A stretch of DNA of 37,376 nt from Paludibacteraceae bacterium (GTDB taxonomy: Bacteria; Bacteroidota; Bacteroidia; Bacteroidales; Paludibacteraceae). The translations under genes and the position numbers were made by a program. Of the stretch, positions 4,966-21,783 are shown piece after piece. The stretch spans positions 31,178-68,553 of the forward strand of contig CAJOFV010000004.1 of assembly GCA_905233925.1 (NCBI GenBank), written 5' to 3'. The notes beneath the pieces are model-generated. The model had not been told where the DNA came from. It ran no database searches and was given only the letters and a program-made list of their open reading frames with translations. Numbering within the stretch: position 1 is the first letter of the stretch; every line of letters starts with the position of its first letter.

Positions 4966-5864
4966 AAAAGACCATAATTGCCATATTACTGCTGTTGGCA
5001 ACAGGCATTTCAGCGCAGGAGCTGAATTGCACCGTTACCATCAATTCGGATAAAATCGAAGGCACCAATAAATCGGTGTTCGAAGCGCTTCAGCAGGCGA
5101 TTTCGGATTATATCAACAATAACCGTTGGACCAATATGACCTTCTCCGAAAAGGAAAAGATTGAATGCAACCTGATGATTATTGTCAATTCGATAAACGA
5201 TAATCTGTACTTGTGCGAGATGCAGCTCCAAGCCAAACGGCCGGTGTTCAACACCTCCTACTCTACGCCGTTGCTGAACTTCAAGGACAATGCCTTTCAC
5301 TTCACGTATCAGGAGTTCGATCGTATCGAGTACCAGCAGAATGTGTTCACCAACAACCTCACGGCAATGCTGGCGTATTATGTTTATCTGATTCTCGGCC
5401 ATGATTGCGACAGTTTCCAGAAATTGGGCGGCTCGCCCTACTTCCAAGCTTGCGAAGACATCGTAAATTCCTGTCAGTCAGCGTCCATGACTGCCGAGGA
5501 GCAGAAGGGCTGGAAAGCGTTTGACAGCAACAGAAACCGCTACGCGCTTATAAACAACCTGCAAGACGAGGCTTTCAAAAAATACCGCGAATATTACTAC
5601 GAATACCACCGCCTGGGACTGGATATTATGGCGGCAAATGCGGCAAACGGACGGGCTATCATCGCCAAAGGTTTGCCCATTCTGCGTGAAACCAACCGCG
5701 CGCGTCCGGCTACATACGTCGTCAATGTTTTTCTTGATGCCAAGTCTGACGAACTGACAAACATCTTTGAGAAAGGCACAGACAAAGAGAAAAAAGATGC
5801 CTACGAAATCCTCATGGACATTGACCCGACACGAAACAATCTGTACGAGAGAATAATAAAGTAA
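4962..5864 (+). CDS. DUF4835 family protein (PorD-like)
   Basis: This 300-residue protein has a signal peptide (MKKTIIAILLLLATGISAQ) followed by the hallmark ELNCTVTINSDKIEGTNK, RWTNMTFSEKEKIECN and STPLLNFKDNAFHF blocks of DUF4835. Homologues are sometimes annotated as the type IX secretion protein PorD, but that role is not something this sequence can show. It overlaps DUF4831 by ATGA and the recN start by one base (TAATG). In many relatives this gene sits just before recN, often with coaBC between them. No coaBC is present here. Confidence 0.85.
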   Translation: MKKTIIAILLLLATGISAQELNCTVTINSDKIEGTNKSVFEALQQAISDYINNNRWTNMTFSEKEKIECNLMIIVNSINDNLYLCEMQLQAKRPVFNTSYSTPLLNFKDNAFHFTYQEFDRIEYQQNVFTNNLTAMLAYYVYLILGHDCDSFQKLGGSPYFQACEDIVNSCQSASMTAEEQKGWKAFDSNRNRYALINNLQDEAFKKYREYYYEYHRLGLDIMAANAANGRAIIAKGLPILRETNRARPATYVVNVFLDAKSDELTNIFEKGTDKEKKDAYEILMDIDPTRNNLYERIIK

Positions 5865-7444
5865 TGTTGCAACACCTACACATACAAAACTACGCGCTCA
5901 TTTCGCATCTGGACATTGATTTCCACGAAGGCTTTTCTGCGTTGACCGGAGAAACCGGTGCAGGAAAAAGTATCATTCTCGGTGCTTTGGCTTTGGTTAT
6001 GGGCGGACGTGCAGACCTGAAAACCATCACGGAGGGCGAAGAACGCTGCATCATCGAGGCGGATTTCGGCGAGTACCTGATTCGTCGCGAACTCAATCGC
6101 AACGGACGTTCACGTTCACTGGTGAATGATGAGGTGGTGACGCAAACCGAACTGAAAGCGCTGGCGAACAAACTCATTGATATACATTCCCAACACGAAA
6201 ATCTGCTGTTGGCGGATGATTCGTTCCAGTTGGGCGTAATAGATGCCCTCGCACACAATGAGGCCGAACGGGAAACCTACTCCGCTCGCTATACGGCATA
6301 TCGCGCTGCGGAACAGGCTTTGCGTGATTTGGAAGCGTTGGCAGCCAAAACCGGTAAAGACCAGGATTACATTGCCTTCCAATTCGGGCAATTGGAAGAA
6401 GCACAACTAAACGATGCTGATGAACTGGAAAATCTAGAGGAAGAAGAATACCGTTTGAGCCATGTTGAACAACTGAAAGCCCAATTGCAAACGGCTCTGC
6501 AAGCGTTGGATGAGGACGAACGGAGTGCGATGTCAATGCTTCGGATAGCGCAAAGTGCCTTGCAAGACGAAGAAAGTTTGAATAGCCGCTTGCAAAGCGT
6601 GGAAATAGAACTCAAGGATATTATTTCCGAGACCAACCACTTGGCAGAAAACACCGAATATGACCCCGAACGCCTGCAAATAGTACAGGAACGGCTTGAT
6701 CTCATCAACACCCTGTTACGCAAACATGGTGTACAAACCGTGGCGGAACTGATGGCATTACGCGATGAGCTGGGCGCACAATTAGGCAAAATCGCTTCGT
6801 TTGACGAAGACATTGCCAACGCAAAGAAAGAAGTGGCAGCTTGCCGGAGTTCGCTTGAAACGGCGGCACAAGCCTTGACACAATCCAGAAAAGCCGTGCG
6901 GGAACAAATCTCCATACAGCTGACGCTTGACCTCTCCAAACTTGGCATTGCCCATGCAAATGTGGACATTGCCATTACGCCGTTGGAAGACTTCAGCGAA
7001 AGCGGAAACGACAATATACAGTTCCTCTTTGCTGCCAACCTCAACCAGTCATTACGTCCGGTAAGTGATGTGGCAAGCGGCGGTGAAATAGCCCGTTTCA
7101 TGTTGTGCGTCAAAGCGTTAATCGCTTCCACAAACGGACTTCCGACCATCATCTTTGACGAAATAGACACCGGCGTAAGTGGCGAAATAGCCACGCAGAT
7201 GGGACATATCATGCGCGAAATGGCTACATCACGACAGATTATCGCCATTACCCATTTGCCTCAGATTGCAGCACAAGCCGAAACGCAATTCCGTGTCTAT
7301 AAGCAGGATACCGACACGCGCACCGAAACGCACATTGTGCAATTGGACACCGAAGAACGAATCCGAGACATCGCTGCTATGCTTTCCGGCAAAGCCATCA
7401 CGGATGCCGCATTAACAACCGCAAAAGAGTTGCTGCGCAAATGA
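5864..7444 (+). CDS. recN: DNA repair protein RecN
   Basis: RecN is an SMC-like ATPase that acts early at double-strand breaks and holds DNA ends. This 526-residue protein has the N-terminal Walker A (GETGAGKSIILGAL, about residues 30-43), two long Glu/Gln/Leu-rich coiled-coil arms, the C-terminal ABC signature VASGGEIARFMLC and Walker B IIFDEIDTGVSGE. It ends with the ITHLPQIAAQA switch region. The length is slightly under the E. coli protein (553). The start overlaps the DUF4835 stop as TAATG. The stop is linked to rarA by an unusual ladder of minicistrons. Confidence 0.97.
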   Translation: MLQHLHIQNYALISHLDIDFHEGFSALTGETGAGKSIILGALALVMGGRADLKTITEGEERCIIEADFGEYLIRRELNRNGRSRSLVNDEVVTQTELKALANKLIDIHSQHENLLLADDSFQLGVIDALAHNEAERETYSARYTAYRAAEQALRDLEALAAKTGKDQDYIAFQFGQLEEAQLNDADELENLEEEEYRLSHVEQLKAQLQTALQALDEDERSAMSMLRIAQSALQDEESLNSRLQSVEIELKDIISETNHLAENTEYDPERLQIVQERLDLINTLLRKHGVQTVAELMALRDELGAQLGKIASFDEDIANAKKEVAACRSSLETAAQALTQSRKAVREQISIQLTLDLSKLGIAHANVDIAITPLEDFSESGNDNIQFLFAANLNQSLRPVSDVASGGEIARFMLCVKALIASTNGLPTIIFDEIDTGVSGEIATQMGHIMREMATSRQIIAITHLPQIAAQAETQFRVYKQDTDTRTETHIVQLDTEERIRDIAAMLSGKAITDAALTTAKELLRK

Positions 7445-7472
7445 ATAAATGATAAAATGAGTAAATGATAAA
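7441..7472 (+). repeat. Four 8-bp units forming overlapping 3-codon minicistrons between recN and rarA
   Basis: The recN-rarA junction is a run of 8-bp units of the form ATGANNAA, at 7441, 7449, 7457 and 7465, followed in register by the rarA ATG at 7473. Each ATG opens a frame of three sense codons and then TGA (MNK, MIK, MSK, MIK). Each TGA overlaps the next ATG as ATGA. The first ATG overlaps the recN stop in the same way. The pattern is read directly from the bases; translation of any of these is untested. Confidence 0.85.
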
Positions 7473-8753
7473 ATGAGTTTGCCATTAGCAGAAAGACTGC
7501 GTCCAAAGACGCTGAACGAGTACATAGGACAGAAACATCTGGTCGGAGAAGGTGCTGTTTTGCGGCAGATGATTGAAAGCGGCAACTTGTCGTCGTTCAT
7601 TCTGTGGGGTCCTCCGGGCGTTGGCAAAACAACGCTGGCGCGAATTATCGCGCATGAACTGGAGCGTCCTTTTTATACGCTTTCTGCGGTTACAAGCGGC
7701 GTGAAGGAAGTGCGGGACGTGATTGATAAAGCCAAACGCGAGGCAAAAATCAACAGCGGACTCTTTGCCGCACAAACCGACCAACGCTCCCCTATTCTGT
7801 TTATTGACGAAATCCACCGTTTCAGCAAGTCGCAGCAGGACAGCCTGCTTGGTGCAGTAGAAGACGGCACGATTACGCTCATTGGCGCAACAACGGAAAA
7901 CCCGAGTTTTGAAGTTATTAATCCATTGCTGTCACGTTGTCAGATTTATGTGCTGCAGCCGCTTGGCAAAGACGACATGTTGGAATTGTTGCATCGCGCA
8001 GTTACGGAAGATGACGAAATCAAGGCGCGACACCTTAATATAAAAGAAACAGACGCCATTCTGCGCTACAGCGGCGGTGACGCACGCAAGCTGCTCAACA
8101 TCATTGAGTTGGTTGGCAATTCAGGCGTAACGGACATAGACAATGAAACCGTTACCAAACAACTGCAGCAGAATCCCGTGGCATATGATAAAGACGGTGA
8201 ATTGCACTACGATATTATCTCGGCCTTCATCAAGTCCATCCGCGGCAGCGATCCGGATGCGGCAATTTATTGGCTGGCTCGCATGGTGGCTGCAGGCGAG
8301 GATCCGAAATTCATCGCACGACGCTTGGTAATTTCTGCCAGTGAAGACATCGGCCTCGCAAATCCGAATGCAATGCTTGTTGCTAATGCCTGCTTTGATA
8401 CTTTGCAGAAAATCGGTTGGCCGGAAGGACGTATTCCGTTGGCGTTGGCAACTATATATTTGGCTACTTCGCAGAAATCTAACTCTGCCTATCTGGCAAT
8501 AGACACCGCCCTTGCAGAAGTGGAAAAATCCGGTAATTTGGCTGTCCCGCTGCACTTGCGCAACGCCCCTACCCAACTAATGAAAGATTTGGGTTATAGT
8601 GAAGGATACAAGTATGCGCACGATTTCCCGAATCATTTTGTTAAGCAGCAATTCCTGCCGGATGAACTGATTGGAACGCATTTCTGGGAAGCGCAAGGCA
8701 GTCCGCAAGAGCAGAAATTGGCGGATTGGATGAAGCATTTATGGGAAAATTAG
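7473..8753 (+). CDS. rarA: Replication-associated recombination protein A (AAA+ ATPase)
   Basis: RarA (MgsA) is a clamp-loader-like AAA+ ATPase that acts at stalled replication forks. The 426-residue protein opens with PLAERLRPKTLNEYIGQKHL, then Walker A GPPGVGKTT, Walker B LFIDEIHRF, and sensor 1 IGATTENPSFEVI. The C-terminal part has the SGGDARKLLN sensor 2 region, the AIYWLARMVAAGEDP block and a C-terminal domain ending near LPDELIGTHFWEAQG, all standard for the family at normal length. It shares the operon with recN, another repair gene, and overlaps hemW by 13 nt. Confidence 0.96.
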   Translation: MSLPLAERLRPKTLNEYIGQKHLVGEGAVLRQMIESGNLSSFILWGPPGVGKTTLARIIAHELERPFYTLSAVTSGVKEVRDVIDKAKREAKINSGLFAAQTDQRSPILFIDEIHRFSKSQQDSLLGAVEDGTITLIGATTENPSFEVINPLLSRCQIYVLQPLGKDDMLELLHRAVTEDDEIKARHLNIKETDAILRYSGGDARKLLNIIELVGNSGVTDIDNETVTKQLQQNPVAYDKDGELHYDIISAFIKSIRGSDPDAAIYWLARMVAAGEDPKFIARRLVISASEDIGLANPNAMLVANACFDTLQKIGWPEGRIPLALATIYLATSQKSNSAYLAIDTALAEVEKSGNLAVPLHLRNAPTQLMKDLGYSEGYKYAHDFPNHFVKQQFLPDELIGTHFWEAQGSPQEQKLADWMKHLWEN

Positions 8754-18465: not shown

Positions 18466-19248
18466 TCACATCGGTTTAATGCGGCGAGCAAGTCGGGCAC
18501 AAAGAGACGGGAAGAAGCGCTTGATATAAACCATTATTAGTTCGCCGCGACCGATAAGGATTTCCCGCTTGCCTTTAGCAATGGCACGAACAATTTGTTT
18601 GGCAGCTTTGTCTGCGGGCATACCATTATCCTGTCCCGGATCCATTGTGCCATGCTTTTCGCCACCTTTGTCAAGCGCATTGACAGAAATGTTTGTCTTG
18701 ACACGACCCGGACAAACAATCGTGACACGGATACCCTGATTGTAATACTCGGCCTGCAAGGTTTCGAAGAATCCGTACAAAGCATGTTTGGAGGAAGAAT
18801 ACGCGCAGCGCAACGGGAAGCCGAAAACGCCTGCAATAGAAGTCGTTACAGCGATATGTCCCCCACCCGCTTTGAGCATGAGCGGCAGTATGGCTTTTGT
18901 CAATGCCACCGGTGCAAAGTAGTTGATTTCCATAATCTGCCGCACCATATCCATACTTGTATCTTTCACGGATGTGCGTTGGCTAATGCCTGCATTACAG
19001 AAGAGCACATCTATTCCGCCAAACGCGTCCCATGCTGTGCGAGCAAGCAGTTTGATGCCTTCGAGTTCATTGAAATCAGAAGGCAAAACGAGTACTTCTT
19101 CCGCACCTTTTTCCCTGCATTTGGCGGCTACCGGTTCAAGCCGTTCACGCGACGAAGAGGTGAGAATCAAACGATTCCCACCCTCCGCGTATTTATATGC
19201 ACAGGCTTCGCCGATTCCGGACGAAGCACCGGTAATCCAAATATTCAT
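18466..19248 (-). CDS. Short-chain dehydrogenase/reductase, candidate 3-keto-lipid-base reductase
   Basis: This 260-residue classical SDR has the cofactor motif GASSGIGEACA (residues 7-17), the NAG motif FCNAGIS, the catalytic Ser in TTSIAG and the YSSSK Tyr/Lys pair. The C-terminal part (GMPADKAAKQIVRAIAKGKREILIG, then a short hydrophobic tail) resembles DHRS7/KDSR-like reductases that act on membrane lipids. It follows the alpha-oxoamine synthase at 31 nt, so reduction of that enzyme's 3-keto product is the simplest role. That link is inferred from order only. Confidence 0.85.
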   Translation of the reverse strand: MNIWITGASSGIGEACAYKYAEGGNRLILTSSSRERLEPVAAKCREKGAEEVLVLPSDFNELEGIKLLARTAWDAFGGIDVLFCNAGISQRTSVKDTSMDMVRQIMEINYFAPVALTKAILPLMLKAGGGHIAVTTSIAGVFGFPLRCAYSSSKHALYGFFETLQAEYYNQGIRVTIVCPGRVKTNISVNALDKGGEKHGTMDPGQDNGMPADKAAKQIVRAIAKGKREILIGRGELIMVYIKRFFPSLCARLARRIKPM

Positions 19249-19280
19249 TTGAAAATTTGAAGATTTGAATATTTGAAAAT
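19249..19280 (-). repeat. Four 8-bp units filling the AOS-SDR junction
   Basis: On the minus strand the gap consists of ATTTTCAA, ATATTCAA, ATCTTCAA and ATTTTCAA, followed in register by the SDR start ATGAATAT. The first unit begins on the last base of the upstream TAA. The 4 x 8-bp layout ending on the next gene's ATG is the same as at recN-rarA, with unrelated sequence and without minicistrons. Confidence 0.85.
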
Positions 19281-20545
19281 TACTTAATCAGAGCCATGTC
19301 GGGGATATCCTTGTCGTAATCGCCCTTAGCAAGACGTTCCTTGATTTCCTTGAAGGCAGCCAACGTGCGGTCAACATCTTCAATAGAATGTGCTGCCGTC
19401 GGGATGATACGGAAAATCAACATGCCGGGAGGAATAACCGGATAGCAAACAATCGAGCAGAAGATATGATAGTTCTCACGCAAATCCACTGCGATGTTCG
19501 ATGCCTGGTTGATACCACATGCCAAGTGAACAGGCGTTACACATGCTTCAGCCGGACCGATTTCGTAACCAAGATCACGGAAACCTTTCTGCAAACGATG
19601 CGTAACCGTCCAGAGCTGTTTGCGGCGCTCGTCGCCTTCCGGGCTGTCAATAATCTCAAGACGTTTCAAGCAGCCTTCCACAATCGGCATCGGGAGCGAT
19701 TTGGCATACATCTGCGAACGCATGTTATAGCGCAGATACGTGATGATATCTTTCTCAGAAGCCACAAATCCACCGATAGTTGCCATCGATTTGGCATATG
19801 CGCCGATATAAATATCCACGCCGTCCATAACGTTGAAATGCTCGGAAGTTCCGCGTCCGTGAGGACCCATTACGCCAAAACCGTGGGCGTCGTCAATCAT
19901 GAAACGGAAACTATATTTCTTCTTGAGTGCTACAATCTGGTCCAGAATTCCGAGTGCTCCTGTCATACCGAATACACCTTCGGTGATTACGAGTACACCA
20001 CCACCCTTTTCATCCGCGATTTTGCAAGCGCGTGCCAGCACTTTCTCGCAATCCACAATGTCGTTGTGACGGAATTTGTACTTCTCGCCAATATGCAGAC
20101 GGATACCATCCAACAAGCAGGCATGTGCTTCTGCGTCATAAACGATTACATCGTGACGGCTTACAAGCGAGTCAATCGTCGAAAGAATTCCCTGATAGCC
20201 AAAGTTGAATAGGAAAGCAGCCTCTTTCTTTTCAAACGCAGCCAAGCGGCGCTCCATTTCTTCGTGAAGAGCAGTCTGACCGGTCATCATGCGGCTTCCC
20301 ATCGGATAAGCCATGCCCCATTTGGCAGCAGCTTCCGCGTCGGTTTTGCGAACTTCAGGATGGTTTGCTAATCCCAGATAGTTATTCAGGCTCCAGCACA
20401 GGACTTCCTGTCCGTTGAAGCGCATGTGCGGTCCCAACTCGCCTTCCAGTTTCGGGAAAGCAAAATATCCGTCAGCTTTTTCACGGTATTGGCCAATAGG
20501 TCCTCCCGTGGATTTACGGATTTTGTCAAAAATGTCAACTTGCAT
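19280..20545 (-). CDS. PLP-dependent alpha-oxoamine synthase (serine palmitoyltransferase / cysteate acyltransferase / KBL family)
   Basis: This 421-residue enzyme of the alpha-oxoamine synthase family condenses an amino acid with an acyl thioester, with loss of CO2. Visible residues are the PLP-stacking His141 in DAEAHACLLDG, the Asp-His block IDDAHGFGVMG (about 217-227), and the PLP lysine K252 in AYAKSMATIGGF. The N-terminal NNYLGLANHPEV block is standard. Compared with Bacteroides serine palmitoyltransferase it is longer and has a different N terminus. The wording DAEAHAC and SRMMTGQTALHEEME is closer, as I recall it, to the branch that includes cysteate-fatty acyl transferase of sulfonolipid makers. 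Substrate choice among serine, cysteate and glycine stays open. The next gene is an SDR that could reduce the product. Confidence 0.88.
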   Translation of the reverse strand: MQVDIFDKIRKSTGGPIGQYREKADGYFAFPKLEGELGPHMRFNGQEVLCWSLNNYLGLANHPEVRKTDAEAAAKWGMAYPMGSRMMTGQTALHEEMERRLAAFEKKEAAFLFNFGYQGILSTIDSLVSRHDVIVYDAEAHACLLDGIRLHIGEKYKFRHNDIVDCEKVLARACKIADEKGGGVLVITEGVFGMTGALGILDQIVALKKKYSFRFMIDDAHGFGVMGPHGRGTSEHFNVMDGVDIYIGAYAKSMATIGGFVASEKDIITYLRYNMRSQMYAKSLPMPIVEGCLKRLEIIDSPEGDERRKQLWTVTHRLQKGFRDLGYEIGPAEACVTPVHLACGINQASNIAVDLRENYHIFCSIVCYPVIPPGMLIFRIIPTAAHSIEDVDRTLAAFKEIKERLAKGDYDKDIPDMALIK

Positions 20546-20706
20546 AGTATTTTTGTTATTTTATTGTAATTGTCTTATGTTTGTCTTAGGCTTCTCTCGG
20601 CTTTCGTTGCCGTCCTTTTGCCGTCCTTTTGCCGTCTCGTTGCCGTCATTGGAAGGGTGAGATTTGGTTTCTTGGTGTTGTGCGTTATGCTTTAGGGCGT
20701 TGTGCG
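20546..20706. other. VOC-AOS intergenic gap with repeats
   Basis: This 161-bp gap is by far the longest inside the eleven-gene operon. It contains an 11-bp tandem array and most of a 22-bp duplication. A minus-strand frame of 24 codons (20649-20575, basic, starting MTATRRQKDG) runs over the array, with no other support. No good TAnnTTTG promoter was seen ahead of the AOS gene, so it is probably read from the VOC promoter. Confidence 0.6.
20607..20650. repeat. 11-bp tandem array (4 units) upstream of the AOS gene
   Basis: TTGCCGTC recurs at 20607, 20618, 20629 and 20640, exactly 11 bp apart. The last three bases of each unit vary (CTT, CTT, TCG, ATT). The period equals that of the array in the rluA-type leader, but the sequence differs. 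Confidence 0.85.
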
Positions 20707-20724
20707 TTATGCTTTAGGGCGTTG
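20677..20724. repeat. 22-bp tandem duplication across the VOC stop codon
   Basis: Two perfect 22-bp copies (beginning GTTGTGCGTTATGC) lie at 20677-20698 and 20699-20720, with four bases of a third. The copy at 20699-20720 holds the last codons and TAA (20709-20707) of the VOC gene. The other copy is past the stop, so the protein is unaffected. Confidence 0.9.
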
Positions 20725-21783
20725 TTTGCTGACCAGCCCCATGAGCCAGAAGAGAATTTTCGGGAGTTGCTTTTCGCGATCACGCTTGCGCATGTCCAAA
20801 TTCCAATTCAGTTTCTTGACAATCGGAATCTTGTGCGTCTCGACAAACTCGATAAGCGTTCCGTCCGGATCCTCAATATACGTGAAATGGCCGGATGCCT
20901 CGCCCATATCAAACACTTCGCCATCAGGGCAACTGTCCACCGTAAACGGGAAACCTTGTTTCGCACAGAACTTTCCAAGTTCCTGCATGTTGGTCACGTC
21001 AAAACAAATCTGGATAAATCCCGGGTCTCCCCAATAACGTCCTTCGAAAATCTTCCGCGGCGTGCGCTCCAGCGCTTGGACAAGTTCAATGGTGCTGTCA
21101 CCGAACATGCCTGAAAATGCGCCTTTTCGCGGAGCGGAAGTGCCCAACAATACGCGGCGGTACTTGCCATCAGCCGCCTCAAGCATCTGCCAGTCGTCAA
21201 ATGTGCCGGTTTTGTCATACATAATCGTGTCGTAGCCCAAAACATGGTTGTAAAACGCGATGGATTTTTTCATATCCGTCACGCCAACCATTGCGCCATA
21301 GATACCGCCGGTCAGTTTGTGCTGCTCGATAAATACGCTTTTTTCTTCGACCAACTGAAAACAGTTGCCGTACAAGTCCTTGATATAGAAGCACTTTGTT
21401 CCATTCGGCAGGGTTGCTACATCTGACACTTCGTTCCATTTCTTTTTAATTTGCTCATGGAACTTCTCCACGTCGCGGCATTTGACTTTGGCGGCAAAAA
21501 CGCCCAAATCGCCGACAGCGATGGCAAACTTCGCGGGAACAGGTTTGCGCTCGCTGTATTGCCAAATCTCAAATCCGCCGCCACCTTGCATGTTCACAGC
21601 GATGCACGCATGCCGTTTTTGCGGCTGGCCACCGGTGTATGGCAACATCCGCTCGGCTACAGTATCATCCTCGAGAATCTTGACATCTATACCGAACATG
21701 TCGATAAACCAGTTCCACGATTTGTGGAAATTCTCCGTTCCCACGCCAACTTGTTGGATACCAGAAATCAAAAATTTATCCAT
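20707..21783 (-). CDS. Two-domain VOC (glyoxalase/dioxygenase-fold) protein
   Basis: The start is set at the ATG at 21783 (MDKFLISGIQQVGVG, 358 residues). The track ORF to 21990 would begin beyond the promoter. Two VOC modules are visible: ISGIQQVGVGTENFHKSWNWF with DLYGNCFQLVEE, and GGIYGAMVGVTDMKKSIAFYNHVLGY with EDPDGTLIEFVE. The His ligands that usually open VOC metal sites (as in DHIxxxVxD) are Gln or Gly/Ala here, while the terminal Glu residues remain, so metal catalysis as in glyoxalase I or HPPD is doubtful. The C terminus is basic (KLNWNLDMRKRDREKQ) with a possible amphipathic or membrane-touching end. It is the first gene of the operon; its function is unknown. Confidence 0.78.
   Translation of the reverse strand: MDKFLISGIQQVGVGTENFHKSWNWFIDMFGIDVKILEDDTVAERMLPYTGGQPQKRHACIAVNMQGGGGFEIWQYSERKPVPAKFAIAVGDLGVFAAKVKCRDVEKFHEQIKKKWNEVSDVATLPNGTKCFYIKDLYGNCFQLVEEKSVFIEQHKLTGGIYGAMVGVTDMKKSIAFYNHVLGYDTIMYDKTGTFDDWQMLEAADGKYRRVLLGTSAPRKGAFSGMFGDSTIELVQALERTPRKIFEGRYWGDPGFIQICFDVTNMQELGKFCAKQGFPFTVDSCPDGEVFDMGEASGHFTYIEDPDGTLIEFVETHKIPIVKKLNWNLDMRKRDREKQLPKILFWLMGLVSKQRPKA

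Follow-up and report, generated by a model that had tools for sequence, protein, structure and literature searches.

The five ATG codons that lead from the end of recN to the start of rarA in Paludibacteraceae bacterium GCA_905233925.1 are probably one copy of a lineage-specific, degenerate, STRR-like 8-bp spacer repeat, whose sense AAATG form would act as a ready-made linker of stop and start codons. We read the larger finding as a repeat system in operon spacers that evolves fast and differs between species like dialects. The window analyzed here is a 37,376-nt stretch of contig CAJOFV010000004.1, and the genome it comes from (G000) is a 1.76-Mb MAG that is 77% complete. The nearest described class is the STRR of filamentous cyanobacteria, and a search of the open-access literature found no paper on such repeats in Bacteroidales.

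The ladder between recN and rarA

Profile matches to the RecF/RecN/SMC N-terminal domain for the upstream gene (5864–7444, plus strand) and to MgsA_C/AAA for the downstream gene (7473–8753, plus strand) confirmed their identities as recN and rarA (mgsA). From 7439 to 7481 the junction reads AAATGAAT AAATGATA AAATGAGT AAATGATA AAATGAGT TTG, the five octamers forming a plus-strand array at 7439–7478. Five AAATG cores at 8-nt spacing (7439–7475) place ATGs at 7441, 7449, 7457, 7465, and 7473. The first four open the frames ATG AAT AAA TGA (MNK, 7441–7452), ATG ATA AAA TGA (MIK, 7449–7460), ATG AGT AAA TGA (MSK, 7457–7468), and again ATG ATA AAA TGA (MIK, 7465–7476), each TGA overlapping the following ATG as ATGA and the last overlapping the ATG of rarA. 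The first-pass annotation had described this spacing and these M-x-K frames exactly, and the chain of stops and starts that it traced from recN to rarA is physically present. The last codons of recN, CGC AAA TGA, run into the first unit, so that the repeat supplies the recN stop codon (7442–7444); the fifth unit provides the start ATG of rarA (7473–7475) and its second codon, AGT. The gap between this stop and this start is 28 nt, and RarA begins MSLPLAE in the window versus MLPLAE in most relatives.

TRF described the ladder as a repeat of period 8 with 4.8 copies, or of period 16 with 2.5 copies and a 95% match. The five-core pattern occurred at one exact place in the window versus none in 100 dinucleotide shuffles, and four AAATGNNN units with at most one mismatch were found at 132 places in the genome (overlapping places counted) versus none in the reversed control. 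Pure chance is ruled out as the origin of the ladder by these counts, and the genome-wide occurrence of the array class likewise rules out a feature unique to rarA; the idea that the arrangement is anything special to the recN-rarA pair is not supported.

Neither did the proposal that the ladder tunes rarA output, by its copy number or otherwise, gain support. Among the same-genus rarA loci that were read, a ladder is present only in the window's genome and in one other, G015; the rest have 13-nt overlaps, heptamers, or unrelated spacers of other length, an outcome that the first-pass annotation had itself named as speaking against its proposal. Placing both ladders on the RarA tree takes two changes, and by this comparison the recN-rarA ladder arose twice. 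In the clade to which G015 belongs, recN and rarA share an overlap of 13 nt (ATGTTACCATTAG or a close variant); in G015 an insertion of about 25 nt replaced that overlap, changing the RecN end from ...LC(C/Y)H* to ...LRK* and the RarA start from ML... to MSL.... What was inserted matches the repeat of the genome rather than the surrounding DNA.

The octamer family across the genome

The exact three-unit form ATGANNAA occurs at 55 places in the window's genome versus none in the reversed control. Placement was read in a sample of about 0.3 Mb, consisting of the window and 32 stretches around exact arrays (stretches picked, that is, for their arrays), with genes called by a simple home-made codon-usage script. 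This sample held 46 AAATGNNN arrays, 44 of them sense to the downstream gene and 35 lying between two co-directional genes. Forty stretches from relatives looked much alike in this respect, with 30 arrays between co-directional genes, 8 sense arrays within coding sequence, and a few antisense arrays, which do occur at some junctions. Some arrays stand in short leaders directly 3' of a TAnnTTTG-like promoter element.

Each unit consists of AAATG followed by three loosely kept bases, with the consensus AAATGAGA. Conservation was scored leave-one-out, avoiding detection bias, and was alike in the window's genome and in relatives: AAAT is kept at 98–100%, G at 91–93%, and the last three bases at 75/65/55%. 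TGA is retained in 86% of strictly noncoding units and missing in 14%. At 65 co-directional junctions from the genus, the upstream stop codon falls within the first units of the array in about 50, the last array ATG is the downstream start in 24, and about 20 more downstream genes start within about 13 nt. Of the 224 array ATGs between stop and start, 154 (69%) begin a 3-codon frame whose stop makes an ATGA overlap, and nearly all minicistrons opened by array ATGs terminate ahead of the next gene or right at its start.

Free-base identity between neighboring units (lag 1) is 0.497 versus 0.501 between arrays. Since neighbors are no more alike than units of different arrays, the arrays do not have the appearance of recent slippage products, and a fresh slippage ladder is not supported; of the earlier suggestion of a slipped 8-bp repeat with varying copy number, the repeat stands, while slippage and variation are weakened. 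Arrays do retain a weak 16-bp memory (lag-2 identity 0.561, permutation p 0.005). The leaders of two orthologous MarR/OhrR-like genes, in G015 and G035, keep 25/25 core bases and differ at 5/15 free bases. That ladder was found only in these two genomes, and its deep conservation was rejected.

Arrays inside coding sequence retain the same core as those at junctions. Their translation is the octad N-E-K-M-S-K-C-E, with TGT, TGC, or TGG replacing the in-frame TGA, and they sit either immediately behind the lipoprotein cysteine in several lipoproteins (read in frame at L173, L177, L179, L180, L184, L185, L187, and L188) or elsewhere in G000 proteins. Coding arrays away from the gene start occur in the window's genome at L128 (2953–3021), L125, L132, L140, and L144; in one example, nine coding units encode EQMSKWENEKMGKYKNEKMEKCEN. 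Asparagine codons in coding arrays, which were ascertained on AAATG, number 28 AAT to 0 AAC versus 101:120 elsewhere in the same genes.

The distribution of AAATGNNN is patchy: it is commonest in the window's genome, less frequent in G015 and G001, and absent from many congeners; among 295 genomes from the order, a minority carry other versions. It is also present in other families (G216, G286, G122, and G136), whose arrays were kept out of the pooled counts, those of G216 and G286 because many do not represent plain junctions and have a fixed left flank in common. In these two genomes, AAATG arrays (L270, L272, L274, L277, L278, L280, L281, L283, and L284) often follow a common left flank close to ACTGTTNTTTTAGTGG, some facing an opposite array that ends in GAATGTAGGAACAATAAATAGCAT, and together they look like a dispersed element. 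Identical AAATGCGAAAATGATAAAATGCTTAAATG copies spread over many contigs of G086 are likely part of a dispersed repeat. A further arrangement, two outward-pointing AAATG arrays about 400 bp apart, is seen in G015 and G032 (L155 1986–2451 and L172 2002–2467); both orthologous arrays have identical unit numbers and sequences.

Turnover and dialects of periodic spacers

At homologous junctions, AAATGNNN in G015 is matched by TCGTAAA, ATTTGAAG, CGTTAAAY, CATTAAA, AAATNAC, or nothing in G030, G034, G004, G006, and G026. That sister species have different 7- or 8-mers, or none, at the same junctions means that the arrays turn over fast. Periodicity is not confined to AAATG units. Among 54 gaps of the non-AAATG kind, lag 8 was significant in 18 and no other tested lag in more than 3; their units (AAATNTTC/ATTTGAAG, CCTAGNNA, GTTAAAYN, and ATCGANAN) commonly begin at a stop codon. 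The orientation of the ATG-less AAATNTTC unit was 4:4, in a small sample.

One AAATNTTC-type spacer array without an ATG ladder lies in the window itself, at 19246–19282. It extends from a stop TAA (19282–19280) to the ATG of the next gene (19248–19246), both genes being on the minus strand, and ends in AAATG with that gene's start codon (MNIWITGASSGIG...). Spacers of same-genus genomes show periodicity at lags 7 and 8; in those of other Bacteroidales loci (L041–L118) the excess is weaker and confined to these two lags (6 and 4 of 79). This excess in other families suggests that the spacer-repeat habit is order-wide. The window also holds longer tandem repeats: a noncoding 11-bp repeat of about 5 copies at 2252–2307 (TTATTGCACCA), adjoining repeats of 11 bp (TTGCCGTCCTT) and 22 bp (GTTGTGCGTTATGCTTTAGGGC, exact) at 20607–20725, and a 30-bp repeat of 2.8 copies at 1616–1700, inside a predicted minus-strand gene.

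Origin and possible roles of the arrays

STRRs are 7-bp repeats that have been proposed to act in transcript stability and translation coupling (PMC2670836). Both kinds consist of short units repeated in tandem in noncoding DNA, some of it between genes (PMC2670836), and the octamers, degenerate at their free bases, share with STRRs the occurrence of such units at many loci of one genome. The differences are that the unit here is 8 bp, 7-bp families being found in sister species, and that the array here spans the distance between stop and start codon, has a strong sense bias, and carries ATG and TGA. The hairpin of an STRR was not seen either: the recN-rarA array, the only one folded, is an unpaired loop in the predicted fold of the junction.

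As a degenerate spacer repeat of this kind, the octamer would colonize short spacers between co-directional genes, along with some short 5' leaders and coding linkers, and arrays would be gained and lost quickly, with sister species using other 7- or 8-mers at the same junctions. We infer a general array-making process that is filtered by the tolerance of each site. With a TGA every 8 nt, a three-unit run can stop all three frames, and an ATG every 8 nt would make the sense AAATG unit a self-contained linker. Since the sense unit carries both stops and starts, an array placed in a tight or overlapping gene pair would end the upstream gene and start the downstream one, and a ribosome starting at an upstream array ATG would usually stop within three codons, on the next ATG. 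The sense AAATG array may thus be the form tolerated at tight junctions because its stops and starts come with it, which would explain the sense bias and the fact that the small sample of ATG-less AAATNTTC arrays does not show one. The stop/start chain is mainly a property of the unit that is tolerated, probably filtered for by selection on stop/start compatibility, and its use by ribosomes is possible. Two observations sit uneasily with this explanation. The sense bias, the built-in stops and starts, and the high TGA retention would be equally expected if the arrays were selected as a ribosome relay, and neither simple slippage nor neutral drift accounts for units whose core is fixed while the other bases are free and neighbors show no memory at lag 1.

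Selection as a relay would make the arrays chained termination-reinitiation stations, in which ribosomes cross gaps of 20–60 nt by -4 overlap hops and couple both genes, and on the sequence evidence we consider this unlikely. Published data lend the idea some plausibility. Translational coupling falls steeply with distance in Haloferax and Escherichia coli, dropping sharply beyond about 13–38 nt (PMC10666635), and a chain of -4 overlaps could therefore maintain it; the ladder would turn the 28-nt gap into overlaps. The prevalence of 3-codon ATGA-overlap frames, the retention of TGA, the strong sense bias, and the intact cores of the MarR/OhrR-like leaders all point the same way. Each ladder step resembles the ATGA (-4 nt) overlaps at which termination-reinitiation takes place, but here the overlaps, at which ribosomes may reinitiate, belong to 3-codon minicistrons within a repeat. 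Gene pairs of the termination-reinitiation type have a -4 or -1 overlap or lie within about 10 nt, an arrangement that recN and rarA do not have and that is found only within the ladder steps. Arrays without ATG (AAATNTTC, ATTTGAAG, CCTAGNNA, and GTTAAAYN) and heptamers, moreover, occupy the same type of junction, antisense arrays exist at junctions, coding arrays retain the same core, 14% of noncoding units have no TGA, and most relatives have no ladder at the same junction. We are similarly doubtful of the broader proposal that sense AAATGNNN arrays are modular relays replacing gene overlaps with chains of 3-codon minicistrons, the stop-rich 7- and 8-mer linkers of sister species doing the same task.

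Selection may instead act on a nearly C-free, weakly structured region ahead of the start codon, the AUGs being incidental. This is a tentative reading, less doubtful to us than the relay and compatible with a spacer repeat, for which it could be the selective reason. Translation initiation in Bacteroidetes does without Shine-Dalgarno pairing and is modulated by weak structure and by an A-rich upstream sequence, A at -3 among its bases (PMC6847099); C makes up only 2% of array bases, and the unpaired loop at recN-rarA and the arrays directly after promoter-like elements agree with such a leader. It accounts for neither the exact period of 8 nt nor the strictness of the AAATG core nor the sense bias, however, and A stands at -3 of the array ATG in only about 55–57% of units. 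That slippage alters the unit number and so varies rarA expression seems very improbable. The array shares with phase-variable simple sequence repeats a tandem period (here 8 bp) at a gene start, and the 16-bp memory would fit, but the units are degenerate rather than near-identical and show no fresh-copy signature, unit number is equal in two orthologous arrays of G015 and G032, and the array is missing from nearly all relatives. Octamer arrays also stand at dozens of loci beside unrelated genes. Least probable of all is that a reverse transcriptase adds the repeats from a template, as in DRT10 or telomerase. Species-specific 7–8-nt units with a fixed core recall the DRT10 precedent, in which 9-nt tandem-repeat DNA is made from an ncRNA template (PMC12632851), but one template would not be expected to give degenerate units, and no RVT_1 gene (PF00078) was found in the window's 77%-complete MAG, with a control set positive in 3/14 genomes.

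Operon spacers are usually held to be featureless, yet in one uncultured genus a large share of them consists of period-7/8 repeats in species-specific dialects. These repeats are inserted between housekeeping gene pairs, once replacing an overlap, and supply stop and start codons. The arrays bear on the spread of new short repeats without an obvious mobile element and on how non-Shine-Dalgarno bacteria tolerate upstream AUGs, and they offer natural replicates for asking whether ribosomes walk chains of minimal reading frames. Were the relay true, it would keep coupling over gaps of 20–60 nt in bacteria whose ribosomes ignore Shine-Dalgarno sequences.
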